Below, one piece after another: positions 11,051 through 61,190 of a stretch of 61,190 nt of DNA. The DNA comes from Pseudobutyrivibrio sp. (lineage in GTDB: Bacteria; Bacillota; Clostridia; Lachnospirales; Lachnospiraceae): positions 1-61,190 of the forward strand of contig NZ_JAFUSK010000078.1 of assembly GCF_017471675.1 (NCBI RefSeq), given 5' to 3'. The notes below the pieces were generated by a model. The model ran no database searches, was not told the DNA's origin, and saw only the letters and a program-made list of their open reading frames with translations. The position numbers and the translations under genes are program-made. How positions within the stretch are numbered: the first letter of the stretch is position 1; every line of letters begins with the position of its first letter.

Positions 11051-11083
11051 AAAAAAAATCGCAGAGCCTTATAGCTCTGCGAT
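11051..11083 (-). terminator. Rho-independent terminator of the RiPP operon
   Basis: A perfect 10-bp stem (ATCGCAGAGC, 11058-11067, with 11074-11083), a 6-nt loop and, on the minus strand, a following run of T (the eight A at 11051-11058). It lies just after the last ABC permease gene. Confidence 0.9.
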
Positions 11084-11091
11084 AAGAGAAA

Positions 11092-11874
11092 TTAATAATA
11101 GTCAAATGAACCCTTTTTTCTTGTTTCTTTTTCAACAACTGCAAATAGAAATCTTGCTAGAACCACATACACTATTCCACTTAATAATTCCAATAACAAT
11201 AATAACCAATAGTTTTTATAATCGCCAACACGAATCCCCTTTACAGCTTTTATAGATTTAGTAAGTGGTATACTCCACGAAACATATTGAACACAGATAG
11301 GTAACTGTTCAATTGGAAATTCTGCTCCAGTAAGAATCAAAAGCAATCCCTCCATCATATTCAACACCATATGCATACTATCAGTAAGTAATCCTAAAAC
11401 CCCCAATAAAAGACCAAAGCAGGATGCCGATATCATTGCAACTATTATTGAAATAAAAATATAAACAAAATCCACTTTAGAATAATCGATTTGAAAAACA
11501 ATAACTCCAACAATTAACCCTAAAAATGATGCGATTATAGCTAATATTGCTGGGAAAATACCATTTGCTAAAATTAGTGCTATTTTATTACACGGAGAAG
11601 CTATTATAGATCTAATTCTCCCTGTATATCTTTCATTCATAAACACTATACCCAATCCAAATATACACGAATTCACACAAAGCAAAAAAGAATTCCCTAC
11701 TACCCATTCGCCCAAATCATTTGTTCCATAGCAATACGAAGCTATAAGACAATGAAATATCATCGTGAGTAATGGATATCCAACCTCTAATAATACAAAC
11801 TCCTCCGCATTGAAAGCCGCTTGCCTGCCTTTGTGATACAAATAAGCTTGCTCAAAAAATCTCCTAATTGCCAT
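11092..11874 (-). CDS. ABC-2 type permease of the RiPP exporter (second subunit)
   Basis: 260 aa from ATG 11874, which follows GGAG at good spacing; a longer reading from 11889 has no site. About six membrane helices, with the ABC-2 layout (an amphipathic N-terminal helix, conserved EFPIEQLP and PLTKSIKAVKGI region near the end). Its partner permease just upstream has the same length, so the exporter is probably a heterodimer of permeases with one ATPase. Last gene of the operon, 17-32 nt after its partner. Likely job: export of, or immunity to, the modified peptide. Confidence 0.85.
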   Translation of the reverse strand: MAIRRFFEQAYLYHKGRQAAFNAEEFVLLEVGYPLLTMIFHCLIASYCYGTNDLGEWVVGNSFLLCVNSCIFGLGIVFMNERYTGRIRSIIASPCNKIALILANGIFPAILAIIASFLGLIVGVIVFQIDYSKVDFVYIFISIIVAMISASCFGLLLGVLGLLTDSMHMVLNMMEGLLLILTGAEFPIEQLPICVQYVSWSIPLTKSIKAVKGIRVGDYKNYWLLLLLELLSGIVYVVLARFLFAVVEKETRKKGSFDYY

Positions 11875-11905
11875 GTATAATATCTCCATATTCTCGTCTT
11901 ATATT

Positions 11906-12688
11906 TTAAACAACATTTAGATTGCCTTTTATCCTAACTCTTTTATCTATTATTCTATATAATAATCGCGCCCCCAAAACATACAACAAAGAAATACCTG
12001 TTAATAATACAACTTTATTCCAAAAATTATTTATATCCTCTATCCCACATGCCGTAATTCTTAACAGTTCAACCGCATACGTAGATGGTATTAATCTGCT
12101 AAATAGTTGCAGCGGCTTTGGAAGCAAATCAACCGGAAAAACAAATCCACTTAACATAATTAATGGCACTTCTATGCAATTCATGTATAATTCAGTCTTT
12201 CTTGAAAGCATCAATAAAAATGCAACTATAGTAGCTATTATTACAAATACCACTATAGTAGCTACAAACGAAAACAAAAAGTAGAACGGATTTTTTATAT
12301 CAATTTCAATATGAAATAATATTTTAGCAACCAATAATGACATCACAAAACTAAAAATCGAAAGAATAGTATTGCCCATAATTTTTCCAACTACTATCTC
12401 TCTAAAACTAACTGGCGCAGTATATATTATAGCCAACGTCCCACTATGACGTTCTCTGTTTATATCACCTGCTGAAGAAAAACATATACACCCCCATAAC
12501 CCCATTAAACCCGAGCCAAGAACCACGTAGGCAAAGTAATTAGTTTCACCCGAATTAATATACATTTCATATAGCAAAATCGTACTAATTATTGGATTAA
12601 AAAAAAGGCAAAATTTAAACATTGGTCGCACAAAAGACTGCCTCATTTGGACTAACATAGACTCATATATTACTACTATTTTTTTCAA
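11906..12688 (-). CDS. ABC-2 type permease of the RiPP exporter (first subunit)
   Basis: 260 aa membrane protein with about six helices and the ABC-2 family features: RERHSGTLAIIYTAPVSFRE in the cytosolic loop and the SGFVFPVDLLPKPLQLFSRL turn before the last helices. Its start overlaps the stop of the ATPase gene by 4 nt (ATGA), showing translational coupling. With the neighbouring permease and ATPase it forms a complete exporter. The substrate is inferred to be the product of the 24-residue precursor encoded in the same operon. Confidence 0.87.
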   Translation of the reverse strand: MKKIVVIYESMLVQMRQSFVRPMFKFCLFFNPIISTILLYEMYINSGETNYFAYVVLGSGLMGLWGCICFSSAGDINRERHSGTLAIIYTAPVSFREIVVGKIMGNTILSIFSFVMSLLVAKILFHIEIDIKNPFYFLFSFVATIVVFVIIATIVAFLLMLSRKTELYMNCIEVPLIMLSGFVFPVDLLPKPLQLFSRLIPSTYAVELLRITACGIEDINNFWNKVVLLTGISLLYVLGARLLYRIIDKRVRIKGNLNVV

Positions 12689-13443
12689 CTAACCTGTCCT
12701 CCCACTAGATCTATATAAGCATCCTCCAATGTTACATATCCACCCTTAATCTCCGATGGTACACCGGATTTTACAATCCTCCCATCTTTCATAATAACCA
12801 TCTTATCACACAATTCCTCAGCTTCTTGTAAGTAATGAGTAGTCAGAAGAACTGTTTTTCCCTGTTCCTTTAATTTAATAATTATGTTCCTAAGCATCCT
12901 TGCCCCTACCGGGTCCAATCCAACAGTTGGCTCGTCCATAAATATTATCTCTGGATCATTTATGAGTCCTCTAGCTATTTGTAAACGTTGAATCATTCCT
13001 TTAGAAAAGGTTTCTGCCAAATCATCTGCCCTATTTTTTAAATCTACCAACTCTAATATCTCATCTATTCGTTCTTTTTGTTTTGATGAATTCAGCATAT
13101 ATAAATTCGAAAAATATCGTAAATTCTCTCTTGCAGTCAATCTACGATATACTCCCGTCTCACCACCAAATATAAAATTAATTTTATTACGTATCTTTTC
13201 CTCCTCTCCAAAACAATCAAATCCTAAAACTTTACACTCGCCAGCTGTGGGTGCTAATAACGTTGTTAACATCTTAATAGTGGTAGTCTTTCCAGCTCCA
13301 TTCTGTCCCAATAATCCAAATATCTCTCCGCGTCCTACTTCAAAAGATATACCATCTACAGCAACTATAGTTTCCTTATTTCGTATACCTTTTTTTCTAA
13401 TATATTCTCTTCGTAAATTTCTAACTTCAATTATCTTATCCAT
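12685..13443 (-). CDS. ABC transporter ATP-binding protein of the RiPP exporter
   Basis: 252 aa. Walker A GQNGAGKTTT, signature FSKGMIQRLQIARGL (a variant of LSGGQ), Walker B IIFMDEPTVGLDP and the switch His in LLTTHY are all present. It belongs to the DrrA/NatA-like group of drug and bacteriocin exporters. It precedes two permeases and follows the PqqD-like gene by 29 nt. It should power export of, or self-protection against, the RiPP. Confidence 0.95.
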   Translation of the reverse strand: MDKIIEVRNLRREYIRKKGIRNKETIVAVDGISFEVGRGEIFGLLGQNGAGKTTTIKMLTTLLAPTAGECKVLGFDCFGEEEKIRNKINFIFGGETGVYRRLTARENLRYFSNLYMLNSSKQKERIDEILELVDLKNRADDLAETFSKGMIQRLQIARGLINDPEIIFMDEPTVGLDPVGARMLRNIIIKLKEQGKTVLLTTHYLQEAEELCDKMVIMKDGRIVKSGVPSEIKGGYVTLEDAYIDLVGGQVS

Positions 13444-13472
13444 GATTCATCTTTTCCTATTCTGGACCTATA

Positions 13473-13739
13473 TCACACACTAAGAACATTTATATTTTCT
13501 AAAAATTCGATAAAAGCCATAACATCTTTCATTATCATCTCACTTGATTCACTATCATATTTCTTGGCCATTTTTTGACAAAACAATGATATTGGCATAT
13601 CGCTTCCTATGTATTTATACACAAGTGCGCCAGTTTCATTCACTTTATAGCATTTACCATCTATAAAAATATAATAATTATCTTCTAATTTTCTTATAAT
13701 CGCATTTTCATTTTTATTTATCTCATTTAAATTATTCAT
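13473..13739 (-). CDS. PqqD-like RiPP recognition element protein
   Basis: 88 aa. The sequence fits a stand-alone PqqD-type winged helix: a short beta-hairpin (YYIFIDGKCYKVNETGALVY), then helices with LFCQKMAKKY and a C-terminal helix ending FIEFLENINVL. Such proteins bind the leader of a precursor peptide and present it to modifying enzymes. A 24-residue candidate precursor in the same operon starts with the kind of YEAPK leader these elements bind. It starts at an ATG after GAGGTGG, right behind the nucleotidyltransferase stop codon. Identification rests on fold-level sequence pattern, not on a search. Confidence 0.8.
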   Translation of the reverse strand: MNNLNEINKNENAIIRKLEDNYYIFIDGKCYKVNETGALVYKYIGSDMPISLFCQKMAKKYDSESSEMIMKDVMAFIEFLENINVLSV

Positions 13740-13741
13740 AA

Positions 13742-14590
13742 TTAAAAATCCACCTCTATACTATATTCTTCTATTTTATCCTCTAAATATTTCACATATT
13801 TACGTATATCGCCCTCTAATAGTTTTGTACCATCACCATACAAAACTTTCTTCATATATATATATACATCACTGTATTCTTTTTTATCATTTGATAAATT
13901 TTCAATTTTAATCCATGCCCATTTTCTTCTGTCATTGAATATTTTCTCTCTGCTAAATATATATTCAATAAATCTATAAATAGCTTCCCTACATAACATC
14001 AATGCTGTTGTATACTCACCCACCTCTACATTCCCCCAAATATCCTCCTTCATATTGTCAATCACTTGAATACAGTAATATTCTTTTAATTTGAAAAATG
14101 CATTTATATCTATTACATTTTTAAGCCAATTGTAGTATTCAATATTATAAATTGGAATTGAATAAAAGAATCGTGTCAAAAATTCATTAATTTTCTCAAA
14201 TGAATATCCTTTTGGCATCTTAATACAATTTAGTATTCTCTCTTTTTCTTCAAATCTAATGTTATTAACCCCATCAATAATCTCTTTTATTATGTCCATA
14301 TCATATACTTCAACATCACAATTTATACCAAAACAGCTAACAAAATCTGTCCTGCATATATCGGTAATATAGGTAGCTGATGTTTCTTTGTATCGTTCAT
14401 GCTTTCTTAAAATAAATACATCTAAATCAGAAAGCCTATTTCCCACCCTTCCGCTGTATTTATTTACTGAAGCCTCTACCAATGATCCGCCCACATAAAC
14501 AACATCATCATCTTGGACATTCAAAACCTCAACTAAGTTCATATAAGGTAGCGGTTGCTTCATATTCTTCAGCATAAGTATCTGCTCCAT
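13742..14590 (-). CDS. Nucleotidyltransferase-fold protein in the RiPP operon
   Basis: 282 aa. The N-terminal part has the pol-beta-type nucleotidyltransferase signature: VGGSLVEASVNKYSGRVGNRLSDLDVFIL near residues 33-61, that is GGS...SDxD, and a later acidic position in INCDVEVYD (~105) that could be the third metal ligand. The C-terminal ~150 residues are helical and resemble the substrate-binding half of aminoglycoside-type nucleotidyltransferases. It could transfer a nucleotide to the peptide, to a small building block, or act in immunity. Strong ribosome site AAGGAG, 8 nt from ATG 14590. It follows the protease gene by 21 nt. Confidence 0.78.
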   Translation of the reverse strand: MEQILMLKNMKQPLPYMNLVEVLNVQDDDVVYVGGSLVEASVNKYSGRVGNRLSDLDVFILRKHERYKETSATYITDICRTDFVSCFGINCDVEVYDMDIIKEIIDGVNNIRFEEKERILNCIKMPKGYSFEKINEFLTRFFYSIPIYNIEYYNWLKNVIDINAFFKLKEYYCIQVIDNMKEDIWGNVEVGEYTTALMLCREAIYRFIEYIFSREKIFNDRRKWAWIKIENLSNDKKEYSDVYIYMKKVLYGDGTKLLEGDIRKYVKYLEDKIEEYSIEVDF

Positions 14591-14611
14591 AACGTTTTCT
14601 CCTTTATATTG

Positions 14612-15358
14612 TTAAAAATCTATTGAAATATCATCATTTAAAATGTATTCATTATATTTTTCAGGGCTAATATAATACCTCACATATCTCAATAATTCCG
14701 TAATAATTACGTTCAAATTACAAGATAAATGAACTATAATACATGGAATAATACTTCCACTATATATTAGTAATAGTCCATTGATTACACCTATGCAAAA
14801 CTGTCTAAAAAAATCTTTTTTTCTAAAAGTATTCGACCATGGTAAACAATAATGAGACATAACAAACATTAAACTCGATGTCACTACTCCTATAATGTTA
14901 TTCTCGTACATACAGCACATATATCCTCTAAAAAAGACTTCTTCAAAAATAATAGCCCCAATTATTCCATACAAAAAAACAAATATCTCATATCTTTTCT
15001 TTTCGCTCAAAGTTGCTATACTGCTCTTAGTATAGTAAATCTTATTGATATTATAATCATGAATCCATATCATTCCCCCTATAGAAAAAGCCAAAATGAC
15101 CCATATTATTCCACCATCGTATAGAGAAAAAATATTCTTTAATCCAGTTCTTAAGAATAAGGGTATAGTTTCAACAATAAAATACCCCGTCATCCTAATC
15201 CAGTATAAATATGGTTTTTTTCTTGATATTCTCCTAACATTACCCGTAACTACCAAAAATATAATCCACATAATAGTCAGCTCTTTTGTTCCAAGTACCA
15301 AACACATTATAATGGATAAATAGATAACACTTTGTTTTACTGATATGATACTCTGCAT
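14612..15358 (-). CDS. CPBP-family intramembrane metalloprotease
   Basis: 248 aa with about seven to eight membrane helices. The CPBP (Abi) motifs are present: EEVFFRG near residue 110, a His in MFVMSHYCLPW near 150, and a second in IIVHLSCN near 210; these make the Glu/His metal site. Members in bacteriocin operons are thought to cut leader peptides or give immunity. Here it lies directly after the precursor gene, behind a long hairpin, which suits leader removal coupled to export. The ATG follows GGAGGAAT. Confidence 0.9.
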   Translation of the reverse strand: MQSIISVKQSVIYLSIIMCLVLGTKELTIMWIIFLVVTGNVRRISRKKPYLYWIRMTGYFIVETIPLFLRTGLKNIFSLYDGGIIWVILAFSIGGMIWIHDYNINKIYYTKSSIATLSEKKRYEIFVFLYGIIGAIIFEEVFFRGYMCCMYENNIIGVVTSSLMFVMSHYCLPWSNTFRKKDFFRQFCIGVINGLLLIYSGSIIPCIIVHLSCNLNVIITELLRYVRYYISPEKYNEYILNDDISIDF

Positions 15359-15389
15359 TATTCCTCCAAATACCTATTCTCACAAAAGC

Positions 15390-15437
15390 ATTTATGGTTG
15401 CTATTATCTAATATATGTATTAATAGCAACCATAAAT
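15390..15437 (-). terminator. Perfect 17-bp hairpin after the precursor gene
   Basis: Two arms of 17 bp (15390-15406 and 15421-15437, arm ATTTATGGTTGCTATTA) with a 14-nt loop. It starts 10 nt after the precursor stop codon. No long T run follows on the minus strand, so it looks like a partial terminator or an mRNA-stabilising structure that would raise precursor mRNA over downstream genes. Confidence 0.75.
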
Positions 15438-15446
15438 CTCAACTAA

Positions 15447-15521
15447 TTAGCGATAACCACACTCGTGCATAAGTGCTGCAGGCATCTTAACTTCAACAGC
15501 CTTTGGTGCTTCGTACTTCAT
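15447..15521 (-). CDS. Candidate RiPP precursor peptide, 24 aa
   Basis: A tiny gene with a very strong ribosome site: AAGGAGGG (15529-15536) 7 nt before ATG 15521. The peptide begins MKYEAPKAVEVK and ends HECGYR before TAA at 15447-15449. The opening YEAPK...VEV is like leaders of other Firmicute peptides handled by PqqD-type elements. The likely core is the last ~8-10 residues, holding single Cys, His, Tyr and Arg residues. It sits between the HAD phosphatase and the CPBP protease genes, with an inverted repeat before it and a 17-bp hairpin after it. That it is a precursor is inference from size, signals and context. Confidence 0.8.
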   Translation of the reverse strand: MKYEAPKAVEVKMPAALMHECGYR

Positions 15522-15552
15522 AGCATTTCCCTCCTTTTCTTTTTATAGTTAT

Positions 15553-15593
15553 ACTAAAAATCATCCATATGATATTTTACGAATGATTTTAGT
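15553..15593. repeat. Inverted repeat before the precursor gene
   Basis: ACTAAAAATCAT (15553-15564) is mirrored by ATGATTTTAGT (15583-15593), an 11-bp match with one bulged A and an 18-nt loop. It lies between the HAD stop and the precursor ribosome site. A weak promoter-like TTGGTA...TATCAT (18-bp spacer) overlaps it on the minus strand. It may be an operator or a leader hairpin. Confidence 0.45.
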
Positions 15594-15624
15594 ACCAAGT
15601 AAAATGTGAGTTGTATAAAAATTA

Positions 15625-16299
15625 TTAATATTCATTTAGTAAATCTTTTACTTCTAATAATGACTTTATCTTTTTTACTCCATAAGGACATACAGTATAT
15701 TTATTTTTTCTATCTATAAGAATTGACTTCATACCGACCTTAAGAGGACCAACAACATCATCATCCATCGAATCTCCTATAAAAAGACATTCTTCTGCCT
15801 TCCAATTTGTTCTTCTTAATATTTCAGAATAAAAGCTTTCCTTAGGTTTATAAATTTTTAAATTCTCAGATGTAAAAATATTACTTATAGAATTTAGAGA
15901 AGTGTTTTTTATGTTACACATTAACGGATTCGTATCTGTTGTTGAACCTATAGCAATATTAAAATCCTTTGACAATTCATTTATAGTCTCCGCTGTATCA
16001 TCAAATAATTTCCTATTATATAAAGATTCCAACATTGGTTTTACTTCTACCATTGGGTTAGCTTCTATGCCATATAGCAAAAATAGTTTCTCCAAATCTT
16101 TTATAAAAATCTCCTCTTCTTTTATAAATTCATTTAACGTATTAATATGTTCTTTATGAAATTCCTTCCATTTCCTATATATATCCTCCGCAGAATCATC
16201 CAAATTATATTTGTCAAAAATAATCTTAGTAGCATCAACGGAACCAGAACCTGTAGAAACTAATGTCCCATAAACATCAAAAATAATATTCTTAATCAT
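15625..16299 (-). CDS. HAD-superfamily phosphatase in the RiPP operon
   Basis: 224 aa. HAD motifs in order: FDVYGTLVS (nucleophile Asp with Asp+2 changed to Tyr, near residue 8), GSTTD near 117, a Lys in IYKPKESFY near 146, and FIGDSMDDDVVGPLKVGMKSI near 174 (motif IV). The missing second Asp (DVYGT, not DxDGT) also occurs in haloacid-dehalogenase-like members, so it could be a phosphatase or a C-X hydrolase. An ATG at 16299 is preferred over GTG 16302; the ribosome site is weak. It lies 42 nt after the pyruvate-kinase-like gene, and the pair may make or process a phosphorylated building block. Confidence 0.85.
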   Translation of the reverse strand: MIKNIIFDVYGTLVSTGSGSVDATKIIFDKYNLDDSAEDIYRKWKEFHKEHINTLNEFIKEEEIFIKDLEKLFLLYGIEANPMVEVKPMLESLYNRKLFDDTAETINELSKDFNIAIGSTTDTNPLMCNIKNTSLNSISNIFTSENLKIYKPKESFYSEILRRTNWKAEECLFIGDSMDDDVVGPLKVGMKSILIDRKNKYTVCPYGVKKIKSLLEVKDLLNEY

Positions 16300-16341
16300 C
16301 ACTTTTTAATTACCGCTTTCTTTTCCTTTCAAAATCCATTT

Positions 16342-17331
16342 TTATGAAATCATTGAAAAATCCATGCAAATATCTTCCATTTTATTTATCATTCTTAAAT
16401 ATTTGCTCCAACAAGAATCTTTATTTGTCTCATTAATATAAATACCGTAAGCTTTTTTTTGTATGAGCATCTCAATATCAAATAAATCCTCTTCATCATA
16501 TGTATTATTCTCATATACATTCTGAAGATAGTTTGATGCGCCAATACAACGTAAATTATTTTTTATGCATTTGTTAAGGATTGTCTCAACAGCACCTCTT
16601 ATCTCTTCCTTTTTCAAAAAAGCACTTAAATCATCTCTTCCAATTACTATTCCATCTGCCACTTTCAAAACATCATCTAAATTATTAATTGCTTCCTTGG
16701 TCTCTATTTTGGCGAAGATATCTGATTTTTCTCCCCACATATTCTTTGCCTGTTTCACAATTTCTTCCGTATCTGCAAAAGAAACCACTATTATATTTGG
16801 TTCTAACCGACGTATCCTTTGATCTTGCTTTAAATCTAGCTCACTTAACTCATTATTTACCTTGTATTCATATGGATTATAAATGTGATATCCATACCCT
16901 ATTAATCCCCCATGAAGAACTGTAGCCCTAGCTTTACCAGCAAACGCCTCATTTATTTCAATTATCACATTTTCCCTATGGACTCTTCGAATAAAAAATA
17001 TATCCCCTTTTCTTATATTGTCCCAAAATCGTTCACCTATAATTCTAAATTGCGCGGGATTAGTCAGATTATAATTCTCATTATATAAAAATATTTCATC
17101 AGACTCGTGAACTTGAATACGCTCTCTATTACTTGACCATATTCTCCATTTAACTCCTGGCAAATCATAGTATATTTTTATTTGTCGTTCCTTCTTTAAA
17201 TGACTAATTATTTTTATTGTGTCATCTGTAGCATGTATTCCATTTACTCTTATACTGGTAATTCCAGAGTCAACCATATTACAATAGTCATTAACCGCCC
17301 ATTTATTATTTACTGTAAAAATTTTTTCCAT
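16342..17331 (-). CDS. Pyruvate-kinase-like TIM-barrel protein lacking the C domain
   Basis: 329 aa versus ~470 or more for pyruvate kinase. I can align the A and B domains: VNGIHATDD (for RxNFSHG; Ser replaced), KIYYDLPGVKWRI (for DTKGPEIRT), a B-domain-like stretch with ATVLHGGLIGYG (~143), IFAKIETKEAINNLDDVL (catalytic Lys and metal Glu of SKIEN, ~205) and DGIVIGRDDLSAF (metal Asp of ARGDLG, ~228). The C-terminal regulatory domain is absent. The core phosphotransfer site thus looks partly kept. A specialised enzyme acting on phosphoenolpyruvate or an enol-phosphate is possible; the reaction is unknown. Ribosome site AGGAG, good spacing. Confidence 0.8.
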   Translation of the reverse strand: MEKIFTVNNKWAVNDYCNMVDSGITSIRVNGIHATDDTIKIISHLKKERQIKIYYDLPGVKWRIWSSNRERIQVHESDEIFLYNENYNLTNPAQFRIIGERFWDNIRKGDIFFIRRVHRENVIIEINEAFAGKARATVLHGGLIGYGYHIYNPYEYKVNNELSELDLKQDQRIRRLEPNIIVVSFADTEEIVKQAKNMWGEKSDIFAKIETKEAINNLDDVLKVADGIVIGRDDLSAFLKKEEIRGAVETILNKCIKNNLRCIGASNYLQNVYENNTYDEEDLFDIEMLIQKKAYGIYINETNKDSCWSKYLRMINKMEDICMDFSMIS

Positions 17332-17361
17332 ATTTTCTCCTAATCTTCATCATGAAATATT

Positions 17362-18474
17362 TCACTCTGCATTTACAATAATATAATCAACAAAGTTACT
17401 TTTTTTTAATACCATGCTACTAAATAACTCATATTTAAAATCCATCGAAAACATTCGGTGTCTTCCTGGAAATTTTCTTTTTCTTGCATGATTTGAAATA
17501 GCATCTATGTTATTTTCTGTAATGAAACACTCTTCTTTCTTGTAAATTAAAGTATTGTTCATCTTATCAAGATTAATACCAAAATTTTTCAATAAATCAT
17601 GTAACATTTTCTCAGCATATCTCCAACAATAAGCTTCTATTAGACAATGCGGTTCAAAAAATAATTCTGTATCATTTTCGCTTTGCAGAAAGTATCTTAT
17701 AAATCTATCAGAAAAATCCTCATATGCTTTATAATTTCTAACAATACTAGAATGTAAATAAAGTTCCATAACATAATGATAAAACTTTGAAATAACCCTC
17801 AGAGAATCCAACGAATCATCTATGTTAAAAATAAAAATTGCCCCCATTATTTTGTCCTCCCATACAGGAGCTTTTTCTAAATTTGCATATTCTTTGGATA
17901 AATGTTCTTTTTTTATGTATATAATCTCTATTTCTTTTTCTTCAAAATAATTGGGTTCCAATTCTGCATACAGTTTATACATTGCATTGTGCCAGCCTTC
18001 ATCTTCATACAGTCTTGTAAGCGCAAAAACATATTGAATCCCCAACTCATCACAAATATCTTCTATATTACTGTTCTTGTCTATAATAGACATTGTTTTT
18101 GTCGGAGGATTCTCCAACAATAATTTTCGACCATTGCTTTCACTCAAAAACAAACCACTCTTATACATGTCATCTATTTTTGTTCTACATATATCCAATA
18201 ATTCTTCTATGCATGATATATTATTGAGTATATCTAAGTTGATTTGCTTGACATTTGCCTGCATTCTTTGATAAATCCTATTTACATGTGAAATTTCATC
18301 ACATTCGACAATACAATATTTCTCATTAATTAGTTTGTTTAAATTCTCCCAATCAACTTGTTTTCCATTACCATAGGAATCAATTGGAACATCTACAAAG
18401 TTCCCTTCTGAATTACATAGAAAATCTACTAATTCTGAATTAAGCTCCTCAACTTTTTGACAATTAAACCACAT
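17362..18474 (-). CDS. Unknown protein of the RiPP operon, 370 aa
   Basis: I do not recognise it. It is soluble, with no signal peptide or membrane helix. Notable features are a helix-rich middle, LEPNYFEEKEIEIIYIKKEHL near 190, paired acidic residues in FNIDDSLDSLRVISKFYHYV near 230, and a basic C-terminal stretch HARKRKFPGRHRMFSMDFKY near 335. Its start overlaps the end of the SDR-kinase gene by 46 nt and uses a GAGGAAG site inside that gene, so the two are translationally coupled and probably act together. It could be a modifying enzyme of a new family or a scaffold. Confidence 0.75.
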   Translation of the reverse strand: MWFNCQKVEELNSELVDFLCNSEGNFVDVPIDSYGNGKQVDWENLNKLINEKYCIVECDEISHVNRIYQRMQANVKQINLDILNNISCIEELLDICRTKIDDMYKSGLFLSESNGRKLLLENPPTKTMSIIDKNSNIEDICDELGIQYVFALTRLYEDEGWHNAMYKLYAELEPNYFEEKEIEIIYIKKEHLSKEYANLEKAPVWEDKIMGAIFIFNIDDSLDSLRVISKFYHYVMELYLHSSIVRNYKAYEDFSDRFIRYFLQSENDTELFFEPHCLIEAYCWRYAEKMLHDLLKNFGINLDKMNNTLIYKKEECFITENNIDAISNHARKRKFPGRHRMFSMDFKYELFSSMVLKKSNFVDYIIVNAE

Positions 18475-20570
18475 ATTACTTCTTCTTCCTCTTCTATGTT
18501 TTTTAGTACAATACTAATTATCATTATTCCAATTAATAACTCTGCGATACATTGCTTATATGCATTTCCTTTTCCGCATAGCCTTGGATAAGAATCACAT
18601 AGAAAATGTATTCCGACTAATAACATAAGATTCTTCATATATAATTCATAATTAATGTCACTTAAGATTTGAATTTGTTTTTTTATACTTATATATGTTG
18701 TGTTCCCATATTCCAGCATACGTTTAACGATATTAGTTTTTGTATCCAAAAATTTAATTTTCCACTCACCACTTACTTCCTCAACATCGAATTTCTCCAA
18801 TCTAATTATTTTCCATCCCCAAAAGTAAAACACCATCTTTGCATAATCATAAATAGGGTAGTAATATGGTAAATTATCTATTTCCCAAATTAAGTCCCTT
18901 CCTCTGGAATCAAAAATTTTATAGTCTCCATCTTTGCCAATGATTATATTGTCAAATATCGCGTCACCACTAACACATATTCCCCAATTTTCACTAAACT
19001 TCTCAAATTTGTTTTTTATTTCATTTAATAACAATCCGATTCCAGGAAATTCTTGTGAATTGATATATAGATAATCTGAGAACACTATTGTTCTAGTTAA
19101 TTTTTCTATACTTGCAACACTATTTAATCTATTCCATGATCTTTCAATGTTTATCTCCCAAATATCCTTATCGCATTGTATCTGTTTTATTAAATAGCTC
19201 TTTGTTATCTCACCTATTATTTCATCAATATATTTTTTACAATTCTCTCCATTTAAAATCTTTTCAAATAAGACTTCTCCGTCTTTCCACTCAGAAACAA
19301 CATACGAGAAAGACAAATTACTACCGAATTTAATTATTTTAGCAGGATACATTTTTGAGCTTATCTGTTTATTCTTATAACAATCCTGAATTGCATATAA
19401 TTGTCTTACCTCATCAAATATTTTTTTACTACCATTATCTGCGCCTTCTCCCAATGCCATTTTTAAACTGTACATTTCTTCATCAGTGCATACTTTATAG
19501 ACTTTTGCATACGAGCCACCACATAATTCTTCTACTATGGTATAGTGCAACACGTTACGTATGTATGATCTATAAAAAAGATTTGTTATCTCATCTTCTA
19601 TGTTTACATATGAGTAATCGCGTTTATATACGTCTCTATATAAAGAAGTTGTATCTTCATTTAAGTCTTTATTACCTACTAACTCATAACCCCTTTCTAC
19701 CAATTCTATTTTTCTTTTTGAGTTTAAAATTTTTATATAAATATCAAGTTTTTTTATTAAATCATTTGCTGAATATTGATAAATCCCAAACAGATTAAAT
19801 GTCCTATCACTATGCATAGCAATTTCACTATCAAGTATTGCGTTTACTATATTCGACAAATCTCTGTATGAAATAAATCCCCTTTTTTTATTTGGTAATA
19901 TTAATGTATTCCTGTTAAATAAATCTTCAAATAAAGTAGATATTTGATTATCCTCATTTTCAATTCCTATGATATAATCACATCTTAAAATGAAGTAGTT
20001 GCAGCATATAATTCTAACTATGTATTCAGCAACCAATTTAGAAACACCATATGCATCATATGGTTGTTCTACTATATCAGAAAAGGCCTCTATTAAAGCA
20101 TTAATATCCAATGGAACATTTTCCTTTACTTGCGTCAATATTCTATTTGCCAAATAATAAGCTTTTTTTCTATCTTTTACCTTATGACATTTAACACTTG
20201 AAATAAAAATAAATTTAGTTTCCTTTATAATCTTATAGTTCAGTACCAAAAATTTAGCTAATAAAATACAATTAACAACAACATAATCCCCATAATCTCT
20301 TTCTTTTGTTGTCGTATTTGAATATCCGGTAAAATATACTATCCCGTTATAATCCTTTCCTACATAAGGAATTTCTTGCGATAATGATATTAAATCTATT
20401 TTATTGAATTTCTTAAAATCAGTTTCTAACATTCCAGCAAGAACTTTGGAATGTTTACCTACACAAGCAATTAACTTTTCTTTCACCTTCCCGCTTAGAC
20501 CTTCCTCTATATTTGTAAAGAATAAATCAACAATACTATTCACTAATAAGGCATTTAATATAGTACTCAT
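18429..20570 (-). CDS. SDR-like epimerase/dehydratase fused to a kinase-like domain
   Basis: 713 aa. The N-terminal ~300 residues resemble an NAD(P)-dependent extended SDR: YFTGYS, FIFISSVKCH near 125 and YDAYGVSKLVAEYI near 172 (the YxxxK pair). A classical GxxGxxG is not evident, so cofactor binding is uncertain. Residues ~345-600 resemble a protein-kinase or aminoglycoside-phosphotransferase fold: EELCGGSYAKVYKV (Gly-rich loop), YSLKMALG (Lys), VSGDAIFDNIIIG near 545 (catalytic HGDxxxxN with Ser for His) and KIFDSRGRD (metal Asp). The last ~110 residues are helical. First gene of the operon; the promoter lies so close that the leader would be only ~10 nt. Confidence 0.75.
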   Translation of the reverse strand: MSTILNALLVNSIVDLFFTNIEEGLSGKVKEKLIACVGKHSKVLAGMLETDFKKFNKIDLISLSQEIPYVGKDYNGIVYFTGYSNTTTKERDYGDYVVVNCILLAKFLVLNYKIIKETKFIFISSVKCHKVKDRKKAYYLANRILTQVKENVPLDINALIEAFSDIVEQPYDAYGVSKLVAEYIVRIICCNYFILRCDYIIGIENEDNQISTLFEDLFNRNTLILPNKKRGFISYRDLSNIVNAILDSEIAMHSDRTFNLFGIYQYSANDLIKKLDIYIKILNSKRKIELVERGYELVGNKDLNEDTTSLYRDVYKRDYSYVNIEDEITNLFYRSYIRNVLHYTIVEELCGGSYAKVYKVCTDEEMYSLKMALGEGADNGSKKIFDEVRQLYAIQDCYKNKQISSKMYPAKIIKFGSNLSFSYVVSEWKDGEVLFEKILNGENCKKYIDEIIGEITKSYLIKQIQCDKDIWEINIERSWNRLNSVASIEKLTRTIVFSDYLYINSQEFPGIGLLLNEIKNKFEKFSENWGICVSGDAIFDNIIIGKDGDYKIFDSRGRDLIWEIDNLPYYYPIYDYAKMVFYFWGWKIIRLEKFDVEEVSGEWKIKFLDTKTNIVKRMLEYGNTTYISIKKQIQILSDINYELYMKNLMLLVGIHFLCDSYPRLCGKGNAYKQCIAELLIGIMIISIVLKNIEEEEEVICGLIVKKLRSLIQN

Positions 20571-20586
20571 TCATCTATTAGTGCGT

Positions 20587-20629
20587 ATTATACCTCATAT
20601 ATTTCGCTTTAGCAATATAAAGTGCTAAA
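20587..20629 (-). promoter_or_regulatory. RiPP operon promoter with overlapping palindrome
   Basis: Minus strand: -35 TTGCTA (20610-20615), 17-bp spacer, perfect -10 TATAAT (20587-20592). Predicted transcription start is near 20580, about 10 nt before ATG 20570, and no ribosome site is visible, so the mRNA is nearly leaderless. A palindrome TTTAGCA-N8-TGCTAAA (20608-20614, 20623-20629) overlaps the -35 box and is a good operator candidate. Confidence 0.75.
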
Positions 20630-20790: not shown

Positions 20791-21804
20791 TTACTCAGCA
20801 TTTCCTGCTTCACGAGCCTTGTTTCTATCTACAAGACCATCTCTTACTTTATCCATATAACCTGGCTTATCAAGTGTATAGAATAAGAGTGGAATGATTC
20901 CAAGAAGGAATACAATACCAGGAAGAAGGTTTGCACACATATCAATACCAAACTGGATATGTGTAATCTGAGCTGTAAGGTTTGCAATTTCAGCCTTATC
21001 TGTTGCAGCCTCTAACATTCCCTTAAGAGCAAACATGTTATCATAACCAAACTTGCCCATGATTAAAAGGAAAATTGAGTTTGCAAGAGCTGTACCAATC
21101 TTTGTAGCCATTCCTGAGAATGAGAATGCCATACCATCGTTTCTGTAGCCATACTTAAGATCAAAATCATCAATAGCATCAACAATCATACCTGATCCTG
21201 AAGGACCTGCAATATAACCAAGGCCATAAATAACCATCATTACAAAATTAAATGGAATGCTCTCAGCTGGTCCAAAGAAGATGATGATAAGTGAGAGACC
21301 CTGAATGAGCATTGAAACAATAGCGATGTTTCTCTTACCATACTTCATGCAAAGCTTTGGAGCAATTGGCATAACAATTGTACCAACAATCATCTGCATC
21401 ATCATAAAGATTGTAATGAATGTGAAGTTCTGTACACAGTGCATATAGAAGAATACTGCAACAGAAATACGTCCAAGCATACCAAACATGTTCATTAAGC
21501 TGTAAAGAAGTGCGCATACAAGGTTCTTGTTCTTTGCGATAAGCTTAAGTCCCTCGATAATACTTCCCTGCTCACTCTTCTTAACATCGATTCTTTCCTT
21601 TGATAATGCTGCAACAGCCCAGAACATTGGAAGAGCAACAAGTGCAAGCAAAATAGCTGTTGAATGATAACCTGCAGCCTGCTGGCCATGACCAAACCAC
21701 TCTACTAATCTAAGAACGAAAAGGTTAAGGATAATCTGACCAATTGTCATACCCATCATCTGAGCTGCATTAAGTCTGTTGATTTCCTTAGGGTCACGTG
21801 TCAT
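20791..21804 (-). pseudogene. 5'-truncated GPH-family sugar:cation symporter
   Basis: 337 aa, about eight or nine membrane helices. It matches the glycoside-pentoside-hexuronide transporter family (MelB/XylP type) from the cytosolic loop after helix 4 onward. Upstream of ATG 21804 the frame continues with GWRYLALPVV, which also fits the family (an LPVVMTRDP motif), but reaches a TGA only 13 codons before the ATG. Family members are ~450-500 aa, so roughly the first 110-130 residues are missing. The break falls on the hairpin behind the chemoreceptor gene. No ribosome site is seen. Most likely a deletion remnant; a short, still-expressed form is less likely. Confidence 0.75.
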
Positions 21805-55804: not shown

Positions 55805-56887
55805 CTAATTTCCATTATTATCAAGCCAAATATTATTTAGCCTGTCTCTTACATATCCACCGTACTTAAATTCAGATAAATCCGCATCTGTATTTAGTAC
55901 TACAGCATTTGATTGTAATATCTCTCTTGCAGCATCAGCTAACAACACATGCCTTCCAATAAAATGATATGGCTGGCATATTTCTGAACCTTCTGCTTCA
56001 AAAGCATGGTCAAAATCATATATTGGCGACAGTGACTTTACATTCATTTCAGAATCATATATCACTCCCCAATTTCGTGCATGCCTATCTATATTACCTA
56101 CCAAATAATCGGCAAGCACCATTTTATTTAATGCCTCTTTATAAATTGTTTGCAAATCGACACCAAAATCTAAATCTTTATTCATTAGATAAATACTATA
56201 ATAGTCAGCCTTAGCCATATGTGTATTCTTATCAGTAAAGCATTTGCAGATAGAAACTTGAGTATCATTGAATATATCTAAATTGTAATCAATAACATCC
56301 AATCCTAGTTTCTGAAGAATTTTTGATGCTCCAACTTCTCTAAGTGCAGACTCATTACTGCAATCTCTTTTTAATAAATAGAAGCCATCTTTTGTCCTTT
56401 TCCATGCTTTAGGTGCTTTTCCATCAGTATGTATGTCTGGAGTCAAGATTTCAATTCTATCAGCAGTAAATCCTTTCCCCAATAATGGGATTTCAAAAAC
56501 AGAATTTTCCAGACTATTGTCATATAGATTTATTTCACTCCAGGTAATATCTTCATCTTTTTGCTTTACCCAAAAACAATCATTTATAGAAAGACATCTC
56601 GTAGCAATACCTATATTTGCTCTTTCAGATAGCGTTAAGCTATTGTCATATCCATAATAAGCTAGTATTTCTTTTGCATATTTTCTATCAAGAGGAATTA
56701 TTCGCTCAGCACTCCAACTATTAAAATTAACAATGTTATTAGCCAAATCATCTATATCAAAGCTCTCTTCAAGATAGATTTCTATAGGCATATATTTTTC
56801 TTCATAAATATTAACTTCACCACTACTTTTTATTTCAAAAACAGGTATATCTTTAAAATAAACTTCATAAGTTAATCCTTTTTGCAT
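55805..56887 (-). CDS. HipA-like kinase-fold protein
   Basis: 360 aa from ATG 56887, 7 nt after AAGGAG; a GTG at 56926 is less likely. HipA/CtkA-type kinase motifs in the C-terminal half: LADYLVGNIDRHARNWGVIYD (catalytic Asp and Asn, ~250) and LSPIYDFDHAF (metal Asp, ~285); FYLLKRDCSNESALREVGASKIL (~190) fits the nucleotide-binding Lys/Glu region. No HipB-like antitoxin gene is adjacent. Could be a toxin-like or signalling kinase. The N-terminal ~170 residues are unlike HipA. Confidence 0.82.
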   Translation of the reverse strand: MQKGLTYEVYFKDIPVFEIKSSGEVNIYEEKYMPIEIYLEESFDIDDLANNIVNFNSWSAERIIPLDRKYAKEILAYYGYDNSLTLSERANIGIATRCLSINDCFWVKQKDEDITWSEINLYDNSLENSVFEIPLLGKGFTADRIEILTPDIHTDGKAPKAWKRTKDGFYLLKRDCSNESALREVGASKILQKLGLDVIDYNLDIFNDTQVSICKCFTDKNTHMAKADYYSIYLMNKDLDFGVDLQTIYKEALNKMVLADYLVGNIDRHARNWGVIYDSEMNVKSLSPIYDFDHAFEAEGSEICQPYHFIGRHVLLADAAREILQSNAVVLNTDADLSEFKYGGYVRDRLNNIWLDNNGN

Positions 56888-57144
56888 AGATGTTCTCCTT
56901 AAGGGTGACATACTTTTATTAGCCACCTAAATACAAAGGCAATATTATGCTATTTATTACCTCTATTTCATTTATATGCCAATATTTAACATACATCATT
57001 TTACAACGATATTTTAATTATAGCATAGAAAGTTATACATAAGTCAAAAAAAGGATGTCGACCCCTCATCAGCCAACATCCTCTTTGATACCTTAGACTT
57101 TCACAAACCTTATAAAATCTTATACGATATTAGTTACGAATCTT

Positions 57145-57870
57145 CTATAACAACTTCCCCATAATTTTGTATGGTGTTGGGGTATTTTCCAGGCAGTTAA
57201 CTCCCTTGGCTAAAACAAATTCAAACCTATAATTTCTAATGTTTGGTATGAACCAAGATGGATATTCTATAATAGATTCATCACTTACAATTTTATCCAC
57301 AAATTTTTCATCCGTCATAATATTATCGCAATTTTCAATAATATCATTATCCAATACGCAAATATTATCATCTATTAATCCTATAACTACTATCTCATTA
57401 GGTTCAACATCCGTATACTGAAAATCATATGGATCCTTTGTTAGATATTTATATGGACCTATATTAAATATATATATAGCATTTATGTTTTCGTCTCTAA
57501 GTATGCTTGAAGTCACATAAGGATTTGAGCCATATTCAAAATCCTGTTTCTGCACCATTGCCGCATTAAGCCATAAACTCATAAAAGTTTTATCATCCTC
57601 AGGTAGAAATAATTCGTATACATAAAAATCGCTTATGTCCTCATTGTTACCAGATTGCACATGATACATGGAACCAGAAATAACCGCTTTGTCCTCATCA
57701 TAATCAACAGTTGAAAACTTTGACCAAAAAGTATCCAAATCACTTTCTTCAATATTAGAAGTATTCAAATCTACATTTTCATTATCTAAAAATCTAGTAT
57801 TACTGCTCACACTACATCCACTTAACAGTATGCAACTAAATATTAATAAAAATAATCTGTTCTTACTCAT
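57145..57870 (-). CDS. Lipoprotein, function unknown
   Basis: 241 aa from ATG 57870 behind GGAG; 14 more codons upstream have no site. Signal peptide with lipobox LLSGCS. The mature part is acidic, rich in Asp, Asn and Ile, with no motif I recognise. Last of five minus-strand genes that look co-transcribed (61148 to 57145). Confidence 0.8.
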   Translation of the reverse strand: MSKNRLFLLIFSCILLSGCSVSSNTRFLDNENVDLNTSNIEESDLDTFWSKFSTVDYDEDKAVISGSMYHVQSGNNEDISDFYVYELFLPEDDKTFMSLWLNAAMVQKQDFEYGSNPYVTSSILRDENINAIYIFNIGPYKYLTKDPYDFQYTDVEPNEIVVIGLIDDNICVLDNDIIENCDNIMTDEKFVDKIVSDESIIEYPSWFIPNIRNYRFEFVLAKGVNCLENTPTPYKIMGKLL

Positions 57871-57927
57871 AGTAAACTCCGTTGTAAAATCTAGGAAACA
57901 TAATCTCAGCAAAAAAACTTTCTTATC

Positions 57928-58797
57928 CTACCCTTGTATAGGTGATTCATCAATCTCTACAATTTGGCCAAATTCATTTCCGTAAAGATATAACATTCCA
58001 GTACCTCGCCAAGTATCAATACTTAATCCAGATGCATCTTTATATGCAGATGTAATATCTTGATCATAGAATTCTTTAAAGGTTATTTCTTCATATTCAT
58101 TATTAGAATTATAACCTCCATTAAAAGTACATTCTTTCAGATACCTGATTGTAGCATCTGCTGCTATAATAGTCTTTGCATTTTCATAATATGTCCCATT
58201 ATCATATCGAATGTTGTAACTTTCATCTCCAGCATCAAATCCAGTCCCACTTAAAGGTATTCTTCCATCTGGCATTTTATTAGATTCTTTGAATCGAAGG
58301 AAATCACAATTTTCATGTCGAGATTCTTCCATTGTTGAAAATGAATCAGTAATAAAATATTTAGCATCGCTTACTTCTACGCACTTCCAAGAACTATAGT
58401 AATCAGCTCTCTGTAATATTGAATCAGGCAACCTATCTCCAACTTGAATAGCATCATATTCTTCTTGAGAAATAGCAAGTACTTCAGATACCGTTATATC
58501 GCCCCATATTGCCGTATATGTGCCATCTTCATTTTCTTCTACGCTTTGCAATGAAGTATTCCAATTGGCTGATGAAGTTTCATATATTCCTATATAACCC
58601 TCTGGAAGAACATATGCATTATTCCCTTCATCAGAAATATCATTGTCCACAACAGTATCAACACTCAGTTCTTTAGCATTATCAACATCTTCATTATAAC
58701 TCTCCACACCATTGTCACTCTGTACTGAAGAACATCCTATTAACAATACCGAAAATGATGTAATTACTGCTATACTTAGTTTTTTTATATTTTGCAT
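57928..58797 (-). CDS. Lipoprotein, function unknown
   Basis: 289 aa. Lipobox VLLIGCS near residue 22. Contains a GTYTAIWGDITVSEVLAISQEEY stretch (~90-115) and PLSGTGFDAGDESYNIRYDNG (~205); no known domain. Ribosome site GGAGGAA. It lies 15-60 bp from its neighbours in the five-gene run and, with them, would face the outside of the membrane. Confidence 0.8.
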   Translation of the reverse strand: MQNIKKLSIAVITSFSVLLIGCSSVQSDNGVESYNEDVDNAKELSVDTVVDNDISDEGNNAYVLPEGYIGIYETSSANWNTSLQSVEENEDGTYTAIWGDITVSEVLAISQEEYDAIQVGDRLPDSILQRADYYSSWKCVEVSDAKYFITDSFSTMEESRHENCDFLRFKESNKMPDGRIPLSGTGFDAGDESYNIRYDNGTYYENAKTIIAADATIRYLKECTFNGGYNSNNEYEEITFKEFYDQDITSAYKDASGLSIDTWRGTGMLYLYGNEFGQIVEIDESPIQG

Positions 58798-58850
58798 AAT
58801 ATTTCCTCCTGAGGAATATTATTCCTACACAACTCCTAGACTTGCACTTG

Positions 58851-59768
58851 CTATAAATCATAATCCCTAGCATAGGTACCCATAGAAATATCCCCTACAT
58901 GGGATGTGTTTTGGTCAATATTTAATGTCATATTTAAAACTGTATAGTATTTTGTATTACCTTCGACCATAGGTTGGAGGAATATAGCAAGATTATACTT
59001 AAGACCACTAGAATCCTTTTCGATGGCAGTTGTTCCAATGTATTTTTGCCAGTCAGCCTCACTATCTAATGTTATTTCTTTTTCTACAACAGTGGATATG
59101 TTATAGTTATTTACTAAATACTCTTCAATTGAACCAAAAGTCATCCCATCGTTGTTTCCAATATCATCAATATTCATTGAAAAACCCGGCGCCAAATATA
59201 TAGACCCATCATAATAAGAAGATGGGTAAAATATTGATAATTTGCACTCTTTCAATGTTACTGTGCCGTCGGTATAATTATCTACAACAAACTCTCCAAT
59301 ATATTGATTAATAGGCTGGTTTGTATTACTAATATGTAATCTCTCCATCCCCCCTTCAGTAATTAGCTTATCTAAATTCAAATCTTCATTACCCACTTCA
59401 ATCTCGTATCCAGAGAAAATATCGACGATTTCTTCTACTGTTTTACCTGGTGTCAAATCAATTATCTTATCATCAATTTGAAAAACATAATCTGAGAGAT
59501 TATAAGTTTTTAATTCTTCTTTCTGGTCATATTTAATCGGTTCTTTTTTAACTTCTTCAACAACTTCTGTTTTTTCTGTTGTTTCAACCTTAGATTTTGA
59601 CTTACTTTTTGTACTAGAGCCATTTAATGCAGATGATATTTCATCATATTCAGCAGAAGATATGCCTAGCTCATCCATTGCTTGTTTCTTTTGTGAATTT
59701 CCACAAGCAATAAAACCCGAGCATGACAAAACAACAACAAATAGTAGTGAAATAAACTTTATTTTCAT
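58851..59768 (-). CDS. Lipoprotein, function unknown
   Basis: 305 aa. Signal with lipobox SGFIACG. A Ser/Lys/Glu/Thr-rich linker (~40-80) leads to a beta-rich domain. Residues ~85-130 contain YNLSDYVFQIDDKIIDLTPGKTVEEIVDIFSGYEI. Ribosome site GAGGAGGG. Similar size and layout to the other two lipoproteins but no clear repeat between them. Confidence 0.82.
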   Translation of the reverse strand: MKIKFISLLFVVVLSCSGFIACGNSQKKQAMDELGISSAEYDEISSALNGSSTKSKSKSKVETTEKTEVVEEVKKEPIKYDQKEELKTYNLSDYVFQIDDKIIDLTPGKTVEEIVDIFSGYEIEVGNEDLNLDKLITEGGMERLHISNTNQPINQYIGEFVVDNYTDGTVTLKECKLSIFYPSSYYDGSIYLAPGFSMNIDDIGNNDGMTFGSIEEYLVNNYNISTVVEKEITLDSEADWQKYIGTTAIEKDSSGLKYNLAIFLQPMVEGNTKYYTVLNMTLNIDQNTSHVGDISMGTYARDYDL

Positions 59769-59785
59769 TGTAACCCTCCTCTCGT

Positions 59786-60199
59786 TTAAGCAGTTACCAT
59801 CTGCTGTCTACTCTTAACAAAATACACAATTGTTGTAACAGGAAAAACTACAAACTCAAAGCATAGAATAAAACCAATAATTATCACACCTATACTTGCT
59901 TTGACAGCATTCCATAGAAAAACTATTGCAAATAATTCAGCACTTCGCCCTTCAAAAGCAGCTCCGAGCATACCTGCAAAAACAGCAGCTCCTACACTAT
60001 ATGCCAAAGTAGATATTTTGTCTCCAGTCTTAGTAAAGGAGGCAACAATCGTTCCTACGACCCAGGCTCCTAATATCCACGTAAACAAACCAAACAATAT
60101 ATTTCCATATGATAAACCAGCCCAAACACCTATTATCGCACAGATAATATTAACAATTATAAGCTGAATTTTTCTTACCTTCCAAGCCTGTACGTAATC
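59786..60199 (-). CDS. Small four-helix membrane protein
   Basis: 137 aa from ATG 60199, 8 nt after GGAGG; ATGs further upstream lack a site. Four hydrophobic helices with Gly-rich faces (GVWAGLSYGNILFGLFTWILGAWVVGTIVAS). No transporter signature. It lies between the lipoproteins and the zinc-ribbon/J-domain protein and may anchor or scaffold them. Confidence 0.78.
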   Translation of the reverse strand, partial: DYVQAWKVRKIQLIIVNIICAIIGVWAGLSYGNILFGLFTWILGAWVVGTIVASFTKTGDKISTLAYSVGAAVFAGMLGAAFEGRSAELFAIVFLWNAVKASIGVIIIGFILCFEFVVFPVTTIVYFVKSRQQMVTA

Positions 60200-60275
60200 C
60201 ATTATTAATTCCTCCATAAAACATCCATATTTTCTCAACCAAATTTCAATTTTTAAATTAGTTTATATTCTGTAA

Positions 60276-61148
60276 TCATTTATTTTCTACTAATCCATCA
60301 AGTAACTCATATGCAGCATTGATTTTCTGTGAATAAGAATCATTATCTGCATCATTATCTGGATGGAACGCCTTTATTAAAGCATTACGTTGTCTCTTAA
60401 GTGAATCTTTTGTAACCTCATCCATACTATCAAACATAAATAGTGCTAATGCCTTCTCTATTTCGTTAATATCAGCCGTCTGAGCCTGATTTGAACCATG
60501 CCTTTTTTCTATTTCAATGTATATACAAATCGTAAAAGCTCTAATAATATCCAAAAACTCTTCCGTCAGTTCATATTCATATTTGGTTTTAATAAACCCT
60601 TTCTTCTTAGCCTTTAACCTGACACCAGTTTTTATGAATTCTTCGATATAAACCTTAGGCCTATTTAAATCCACTACAACATATTCAGTACCAGTAATTT
60701 TATCTCCAAGCAAACCTTCTTTAACTTCTTCTGGGCGAAAATTCAATTCATAATCATTTAAATCCGCGAATCTGTATACCATTGCATCGTGTGATCCATT
60801 TTTTATACTAAATAGTCCATGCTCGGTATCTACCAACAGTTTCGTTTTATTTCCATAACTATAATCAGGTTTAAATTGAGCCCTTTCTTCTTTCGTTTCC
60901 TCTTCCCATTTCAAATAATCTACATAATCACTATATTCCCAATTGCTTGTGCCATAAAAGCTTACTTCTATTGGAATTTTAGCCGCACAATCATCACATA
61001 AGACGAATTGAGATTTTCCGAATATGCGCTGCTCTGTTCCCTTTAACATTTTTCCGCAGTGCTCACATTGAGCTGGTTTTCTAAATATTCCCAAACCAAA
61101 TAATACAAACAATACAACTCCTGCAATTACAAGCAAAAAAATAAGCAT
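60276..61148 (-). CDS. Membrane-anchored zinc-ribbon protein with C-terminal J-like domain
   Basis: 290 aa from ATG 61148, 9 nt after AAGGAGG. N-terminal membrane helix (~2-22); zinc ribbon CEHCGKML ... CDDCAAKI (~28-56); a middle domain with LLVDTEHGLFSIKNGSHDAMVYRFADLNDYEL like DUF4428-type proteins; a C-terminal J-like stretch LKRQRNALIKAFHPDNDADNDSYSQKINAAYELL with the HPD motif (~258). J-like domains recruit DnaK. First gene of the run; the window ends 42 bp upstream, so its promoter may lie outside. Confidence 0.85.
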   Translation of the reverse strand: MLIFLLVIAGVVLFVLFGLGIFRKPAQCEHCGKMLKGTEQRIFGKSQFVLCDDCAAKIPIEVSFYGTSNWEYSDYVDYLKWEEETKEERAQFKPDYSYGNKTKLLVDTEHGLFSIKNGSHDAMVYRFADLNDYELNFRPEEVKEGLLGDKITGTEYVVVDLNRPKVYIEEFIKTGVRLKAKKKGFIKTKYEYELTEEFLDIIRAFTICIYIEIEKRHGSNQAQTADINEIEKALALFMFDSMDEVTKDSLKRQRNALIKAFHPDNDADNDSYSQKINAAYELLDGLVENK

Positions 61149-61190
61149 GCCTTCAATCCTCCTTAAAAAAGATGTCATAGCATACTCTCC

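Follow-up and report, generated by a model that had tools for sequence, protein, structure and literature searches.

Linear polyphosphorylated peptides (LPPs) are a group of ribosomally synthesized and post-translationally modified peptides (RiPPs) that was reported in Nat Commun in May 2026 (PMC13381572). According to that report, their gene sets combine a RiPP recognition element (RRE), an HprK kinase, an NTP transferase, an SpI peptidase and an MsbA-like exporter with precursors of 35-200 aa, which carry the motif YxxPxVLxHQxIxFETxxS; serine is the residue that is phosphorylated in LPPs (PMC13381572). For LPP as well as lasso pathways, discrete RREs are described there to recognise [Y/W]xxPx[L/V/I/F/A] (PMC13381572). 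Phosphorylated or glycosylated lasso peptides had been described before the LPPs (PMC9266682), and agrocin 84 is described as a nucleotide phosphoramidate (PMC6429109). Here we analyzed positions 1 to 61,190 of the contig NZ_JAFUSK010000078.1 of Pseudobutyrivibrio sp. (in the following called the window), in which a single AT-rich operon on the minus strand (20570-11092) harbors a 24-codon gene and the genes for ten larger proteins. Its best reading is an RRE-guided, phosphate-tailored RiPP variant which differs from the LPP and paeninodin-type gene sets. The directly observed gene order is: a fusion of a short-chain dehydrogenase/reductase (SDR)-like and a kinase-like part, an orphan protein, a pyruvate kinase (PK)-like protein, a HAD protein, the peptide, a CPBP protease, a nucleotidyltransferase (NTase), a PqqD-type protein, an ATPase and two permeases. 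The positions and the strand given in an earlier note on this DNA were confirmed for each of the ten larger proteins and for its open reading frame (ORF) of 24 aa.

The 24-aa precursor peptide (MKYEAPKAVEVKMPAALMHECGYR) is encoded at 15447..15521 on the minus strand. The ORF is a real gene, for which conservation is the strongest of three lines of evidence, beside the ribosome-binding site (RBS) with a hairpin and the codon usage. An AGGAGG sequence is located eight bases 5' of the ATG, in agreement with the strong RBS that had been noted before. The gene is followed on its 3' side by a hairpin (15385..15440, minus strand; z -4.3), which none of 200 shuffled sequences matched in folding; a T run is absent behind it. 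Between the HAD and the peptide genes a second hairpin, which may be a terminator or a regulator, was observed (15545-15600; z -2.2; 6 of 200 shuffles fold equally well). The peptide gene has a G+C content of 45%. Using the S10 (0.74) and L3 (0.79) genes of the same genome as reference, its codon adaptation is 0.81, whereas values of 0.38-0.51 were obtained for the other ten genes of the operon, and 5 out of 2792 windows of 23 codons taken from these ten genes reach the value of the peptide.

Conservation was found through the NTase. When 344 genomes from the order were searched with it, two were positive, namely the own genome and a genome of a different family (G1427). The G1427 locus (L039) contains a minus-strand operon encoding the peptide MKYEKPSIESVSLPAALSIEMTRF, an ABC ATPase, two consecutive permeases and the NTase, behind which the contig ends. 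The corresponding window proteins are a DrrA-type exporter ATPase (12685..13443; Pfam ABC_tran; 43% identity), two ABC-2 permeases with Pfam ABC2_membrane matches (11906..12688 with 35% and 11092..11889 with 29% identity) and the NTase (34%), all on the minus strand. In the two peptides, which are encoded beside these conserved exporter and NTase genes, 11 of the 24 residues are identical, ten of them within the first 17 residues and one (E20) within the last seven; the common residues include MKYExP, V11, PAAL and E20. Among 6652 short ORFs of the loci compared, the G1427 peptide reached 10 matches after the methionine and the runner-up 7, after two rows scoring 23, which were the window peptide itself, had been set aside. 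The G1427 peptide also has an RBS and a following hairpin (z -6.8). A conserved small peptide, whose absence near homologous operons would have refuted the proposal of the earlier note, is present beside homologous exporter and NTase genes in another genome. The combination of a conserved leader and a variable end resembles a RiPP precursor, even if two sequences are few. The hallmark of a RiPP locus, a ribosomally made precursor whose leader is conserved and whose core varies, with processing genes alongside, was found here for two precursors only. Because the precursor is conserved, the RiPP reading is well supported. In G1427 the cluster has an Abi_2 gene and a resolvase N-terminal fragment in its vicinity (L039 5401-6858), which suggests a mobile setting. 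The contig L045 was considered as a continuation of this cluster and rejected, as it carries no operon homolog.

The 88-aa PqqD-type recognition protein (13473..13739, minus strand) is the putative RRE of the operon. It matches Pfam PqqD with 30.3 bits (cut-off 23.4); the NCBIfam PqqD models match it solely at scores far under their cut-offs. Both leaders contain YxxPx[A/I], as YEAPKA in the window and YEKPSI in G1427, so that an RRE-type protein above the cut-off and a YxxPx[LVIFA] leader, two features of LPPs, occur together in the window. No Pfam match to radical SAM, lanthipeptide (Lan), YcaO, ATP-grasp or asparagine synthetase families was obtained among the ten operon proteins, which upholds the previously noted lack of radical SAM, LanB/LanC/LanM, YcaO and ATP-grasp enzymes. 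Since 35 radical SAM matches were counted in the same genome, modification of the peptide in trans is conceivable. On another contig of this genome we observed a second RiPP-like locus (L036 1613-4536), which encodes a YKKP-containing peptide of 41 aa together with a radical SAM/SPASM protein, a transporter-like protein and a PqqD match just under the cut-off.

The short PK-like protein (329 aa; 16342..17331, minus strand) contains a PK barrel (60 bits, cut-off 30) and, judged by its sequence, belongs with AgnE2 of agrocin 84 (phmmer 2.6e-15, 24% identity over 331 columns). In a search of plasmids, the AgnE2 proteins of agrocin 84 plasmids showed the best coverage, whereas a full-length Bradyrhizobium 'pyk' was ahead by E-value (3e-10 versus 2e-7 for AgnE2); the assignment to the AgnE2 subfamily is therefore based on length and shared residues. 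A motif scan of the genome contig collection gave 6 stretches, of which 3 are further short relatives (L009, L010, L012), found in Clostridium yunnanense, a Clostridia metagenome-assembled genome (MAG) and Actinoplanes couchii. The other stretches were dropped, L011 (467 aa) and L014 (cut) as archaeal pyruvate kinases of the ordinary kind and L013 for lacking PK similarity. The window protein and the four relatives were aligned and compared with the full-length pyruvate kinase of the same genome. All five are devoid of the C-terminal domain and keep R and N of RxN, D of D..G, K and E of KIE and D of RxDL. In the SHG motif, G or A stands in place of S in each of the five proteins, and four have another residue instead of the T of DTKG, which is present in L012. 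Presumably, the ligands of phosphoenolpyruvate (PEP) and metal are preserved in these proteins, with a partial loss of those for potassium or nucleotide. The kept ligands make PEP-type phosphoryl chemistry on another acceptor plausible. Enolpyruvyl chemistry, which had also been proposed, was not retained, as the PK fold alone speaks for it. At 1e-25 the PK-like protein was found in 1 of 397 genomes of the family, the own genome; with the five-row profile at 1e-44, 15 of 398 genomes of the phylum were positive, the 14 others with full-length pyruvate kinases in frames of 476-596 aa. In all four relatives, HPrK-like and PEP-utiliser/PPDK genes are located nearby, within about 8 kb. This trio, seen in agrocin 84, Clostridium, the Clostridia MAG and Actinoplanes (L004 9306-13005; L030 10902-14198; L031 4350-9703; L033 3069-14705), is a candidate portable module of phosphorus chemistry. 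At E 0.05 neither partner was matched over the whole 61 kb of the window, where tblastn was run with three HPrK-like proteins, or within the 20-kb locus L039. Should the PK-like enzyme depend on a partner, the candidate for this role would be the kinase-like half of the SDR fusion.

This fusion protein of 713 aa (18429..20570, minus strand) consists of an SDR-like N-terminal and a kinase-like C-terminal half. The SDR half shows an RmlD match below the Pfam cut-off (8.9e-6) and contains YxxxK; the N-terminal glycine-rich motif was not seen. Among 391 genomes of the class the fusion was detected in the own genome only, and not in the genome contig collection or in plasmids. The gene for the 370-aa orphan (17362..18474, minus strand) overlaps the upstream gene by 46 bases. 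Its product gave no useful match, its single-sequence AF2 model has a pLDDT of 35, and a search detected it in 1 of 99 genomes (its own) and not in plasmids. The NTase-like protein (282 aa; 13742..14590, minus strand) was recognized by a GGS...SDLD motif, and its G1427 relative has a sub-threshold NTP_transf_2 match (E 0.073). With AgnF, the NTP_transf_5 (PF14907) protein of the agrocin cluster, the NTase gave no hhalign match (probability 0.1%). An NTase-like protein of C. yunnanense was tried as kin and is not supported by profile comparison (0.7%). By the same method, distant relatives of the NTase were recognized in Nonomuraea (96.9%) and Agrobacterium (91.9%). The loci of these relatives in Agrobacterium and Nonomuraea (L041 3199-17699 and L008 5406-12792) contain dTMP/thymidylate-kinase-like and other metabolite genes: genes for a dTMP kinase, an orotidine decarboxylase, a nucleoside phosphorylase and an aminotransferase are annotated in Agrobacterium, and asparagine-synthase-like and thymidylate-kinase-like ORFs were read by eye in Nonomuraea. 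The NTase profile was positive in 1 of 48 genomes of the family of G1427 (G1427 itself) and in 1 of 314 genomes of the phylum (the own genome). Apart from generic ATPase matches, PADLOC showed a weak similarity of the NTase to Csx1/Csm6. The PqqD protein and both peptides have no match in plasmids, and searches of a viral collection for relatives gave no match.

From these data, the following pathway can be proposed. The PqqD-type protein would bind the precursor via its YxxPx[A/I] leader, and the core would be formed by the last seven residues, MHECGYR in the window and SIEMTRF in the relative. Phosphoryl groups may be moved by the kinase-like part of the SDR fusion and by the AgnE2-type enzyme, while the HAD-family phosphatase (15625..16302, minus strand; HAD_2 63.1 bits, cut-off 23.8) may remove a phosphoryl group. 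The NTase would attach a nucleotidyl or sugar-phosphate unit. The CPBP (Rce1-like) membrane protease (14612..15358, minus strand; Pfam 54.3 bits, cut-off 22.4) could then remove the leader, with a probable cut near PAAL/M, and the product would leave the cell through the ABC-2 exporter.

The operon forms an island that is directly visible in the base composition, with a G+C content per kb of 27-34%, whereas the left flank (3 kb) has 38-43% and the right flank (4 kb) 34-41%. It ends with a terminator (11058..11083, minus strand; 11-pair stem with T run, z -6.1). In front of the first gene a promoter-like site TTGCTA-17-TATAAT (20587..20615, minus strand) was found by consensus match only; such sites are not commoner in the DNA searched than in shuffled sequences (56 found, 69.0 expected). 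The adjoining MFS transporter gene (20791-21804) has a Pfam match that starts at position 125 of 427, its N-terminal part seemingly missing, and a second stretch of low G+C content (30-33% per kb) is located at 56001-61190.

Taken as a whole, we consider it moderately probable that the complete operon, including the upstream genes, encodes a RiPP tailored by phosphoryl or nucleotidyl chemistry. Horizontal acquisition of the operon, which looks foreign, is considered equally probable. Membership of the four genes upstream of the peptide in the same pathway, which we infer, is the weakest link, because the 20 kb of the relative lack the SDR-kinase, orphan, PK-like, HAD, CPBP and PqqD genes. Several observations weigh against the proposal. 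These six homologs were undetected in the 20 kb of the relative, of which about 16 kb are upstream of the peptide and which are cut behind the NTase, and this lowers the likelihood of the proposal slightly. No PqqD match above 12.2 bits was obtained in the G1427 genome, whose assembly is 81% complete, and a single relative was found, with a peptide gene of only 32% G+C. The kinase-like half has no Pfam match, its label being derived from motifs read by eye, and the NTase, which falls into no Pfam family of its own, is likewise labelled by motif. Furthermore, five flanking host genes also have codon adaptation values of 0.55-0.82, so that the value of the peptide gene may reflect host-like codons more than high expression. 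The phosphoryl or nucleotidyl modification that had been suggested earlier is plausible through the kinase-like half, the PK-like protein, the HAD protein and the NTase, the last being the only one of them that was also observed in the 20-kb stretch of the relative.

Among the alternatives, the operon might encode a divergent LPP, a phosphorylated and perhaps glycosylated linear peptide, in which the differing genes replace LppK, LppN, LppS and LppD. This is unlikely, although the functional roles agree, with an RRE, a kinase-like half, an NTase, a membrane peptidase, an ABC exporter and a YxxP leader. The window, however, has no HprK relative and no SpI, its exporter is of the ABC-2 and not the MsbA-like type, the 24-aa precursor lacks the long LPP motif, and MHECGYR contains no serine, so that tyrosine or other residues would have to serve. 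It is likewise doubtful, though conceivable, that the heptapeptide is released from a 17-residue leader and joined to a nucleotide or sugar phosphate by the AgnE2-type PK-like enzyme, the SDR-kinase and the unusual NTase, resulting in a ribosomal 'Trojan horse' conjugate, possibly linked by a P-N bond. Such a conjugate would combine phosphorus chemistry of the agrocin type with RiPP biosynthesis. Rather improbable is the presence of two systems under one promoter, a RiPP made from the peptide, PqqD, CPBP, NTase and exporter genes, and a small-molecule pathway that is unrelated to it and uses the SDR-kinase, orphan, PK-like and HAD genes. The latter four genes all precede the peptide gene and are missing from the 20 kb of the relative, and no PqqD homolog was seen in the compared loci of the four AgnE2-type relatives. 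On the other hand, all genes are on a single strand with short gaps in one island of evenly low G+C content, and no terminator was called between the halves, though the weak hairpin (z -2.2) is located there. A role of the 24-aa ORF as regulatory leader peptide or attenuator would explain the strong hairpin behind the stop codon in both loci, but is very unlikely in view of the amino acid conservation including YxxP and PAAL, the PqqD-type protein within the operon and the missing T run in the window. A signal peptide of some seven residues, released by the CPBP protease and exported without modification, agrees with the variable end, the protease and the exporter, but is the least credible explanation, since the RRE-type protein and the NTase would have no role in it and no regulator or receptor family was matched among the ten operon proteins.

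The preferred reading, an RRE-guided and phosphate-tailored RiPP, was compared with known systems. If true, it would bring together RRE-guided RiPP biosynthesis and a PK-like enzyme known from a phosphoramidate antibiotic. In the open-licence literature, judged by titles and the beginnings of abstracts, neither this gene set nor the pairing of an RRE-guided RiPP with an AgnE2-type enzyme was found. With its 24-aa substrate and eleven genes, the operon would offer a defined peptide for phosphate-based tailoring outside the HprK route, on which the role of AgnE2-type enzymes could be examined. The agrocin 84 cluster (pAgK84) shares the short PK-like kind of protein, AgnE2, with the window, but contains no peptide or PqqD gene, and its AgnE1 and AgnD1 partners are absent from the window. 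Microcin C-type peptide-nucleotides are defined by an MccB/ThiF-type adenylating enzyme. Their similarity lies in the seven-residue peptide end and the possible nucleotide transfer; in contrast, the window shows no MccB/ThiF-type enzyme by Pfam among the ten proteins, and has a leader, an RRE and a 24-aa precursor. Lasso peptides of the paeninodin/pseudomycoidin type are similar in the RRE, the [Y/W]xxP leader and the tailoring of the C-terminal end by kinase and NTase (PMC9266682), but neither HprK nor, by Pfam among the ten proteins, a B2 protease or macrolactam synthetase (C) was detected in the window. Given such phosphorylated lasso peptides and the RiPPs with RRE, kinase, NTP transferase, peptidase and exporter already known as LPPs (PMC9266682, PMC13381572), the 'new RiPP class' of the earlier note is too strong. 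With LPPs, the window has in common a discrete RRE, the YxxP leader, kinase and NTP-transferase roles, a dedicated peptidase, an ABC exporter and the lack of a cyclase (PMC13381572). An HprK-like kinase was not detected in the window by Pfam or by tblastn at E 0.05, the protease is of the CPBP instead of the SpI type with no further peptidase among the ten proteins, and ABC-2 permeases with a separate ATPase take the place of the MsbA-like exporter. Judged by the comparison with AgnF, the NTase may belong to another family, the 24-aa peptide has only YxxP in common with the longer LPP precursors and their motif, and the PK-like, HAD, SDR and orphan genes are additional to the LPP set. By this comparison of gene sets, LPP is the closest published system, from which the operon departs in four defining features while serving the same functional roles.

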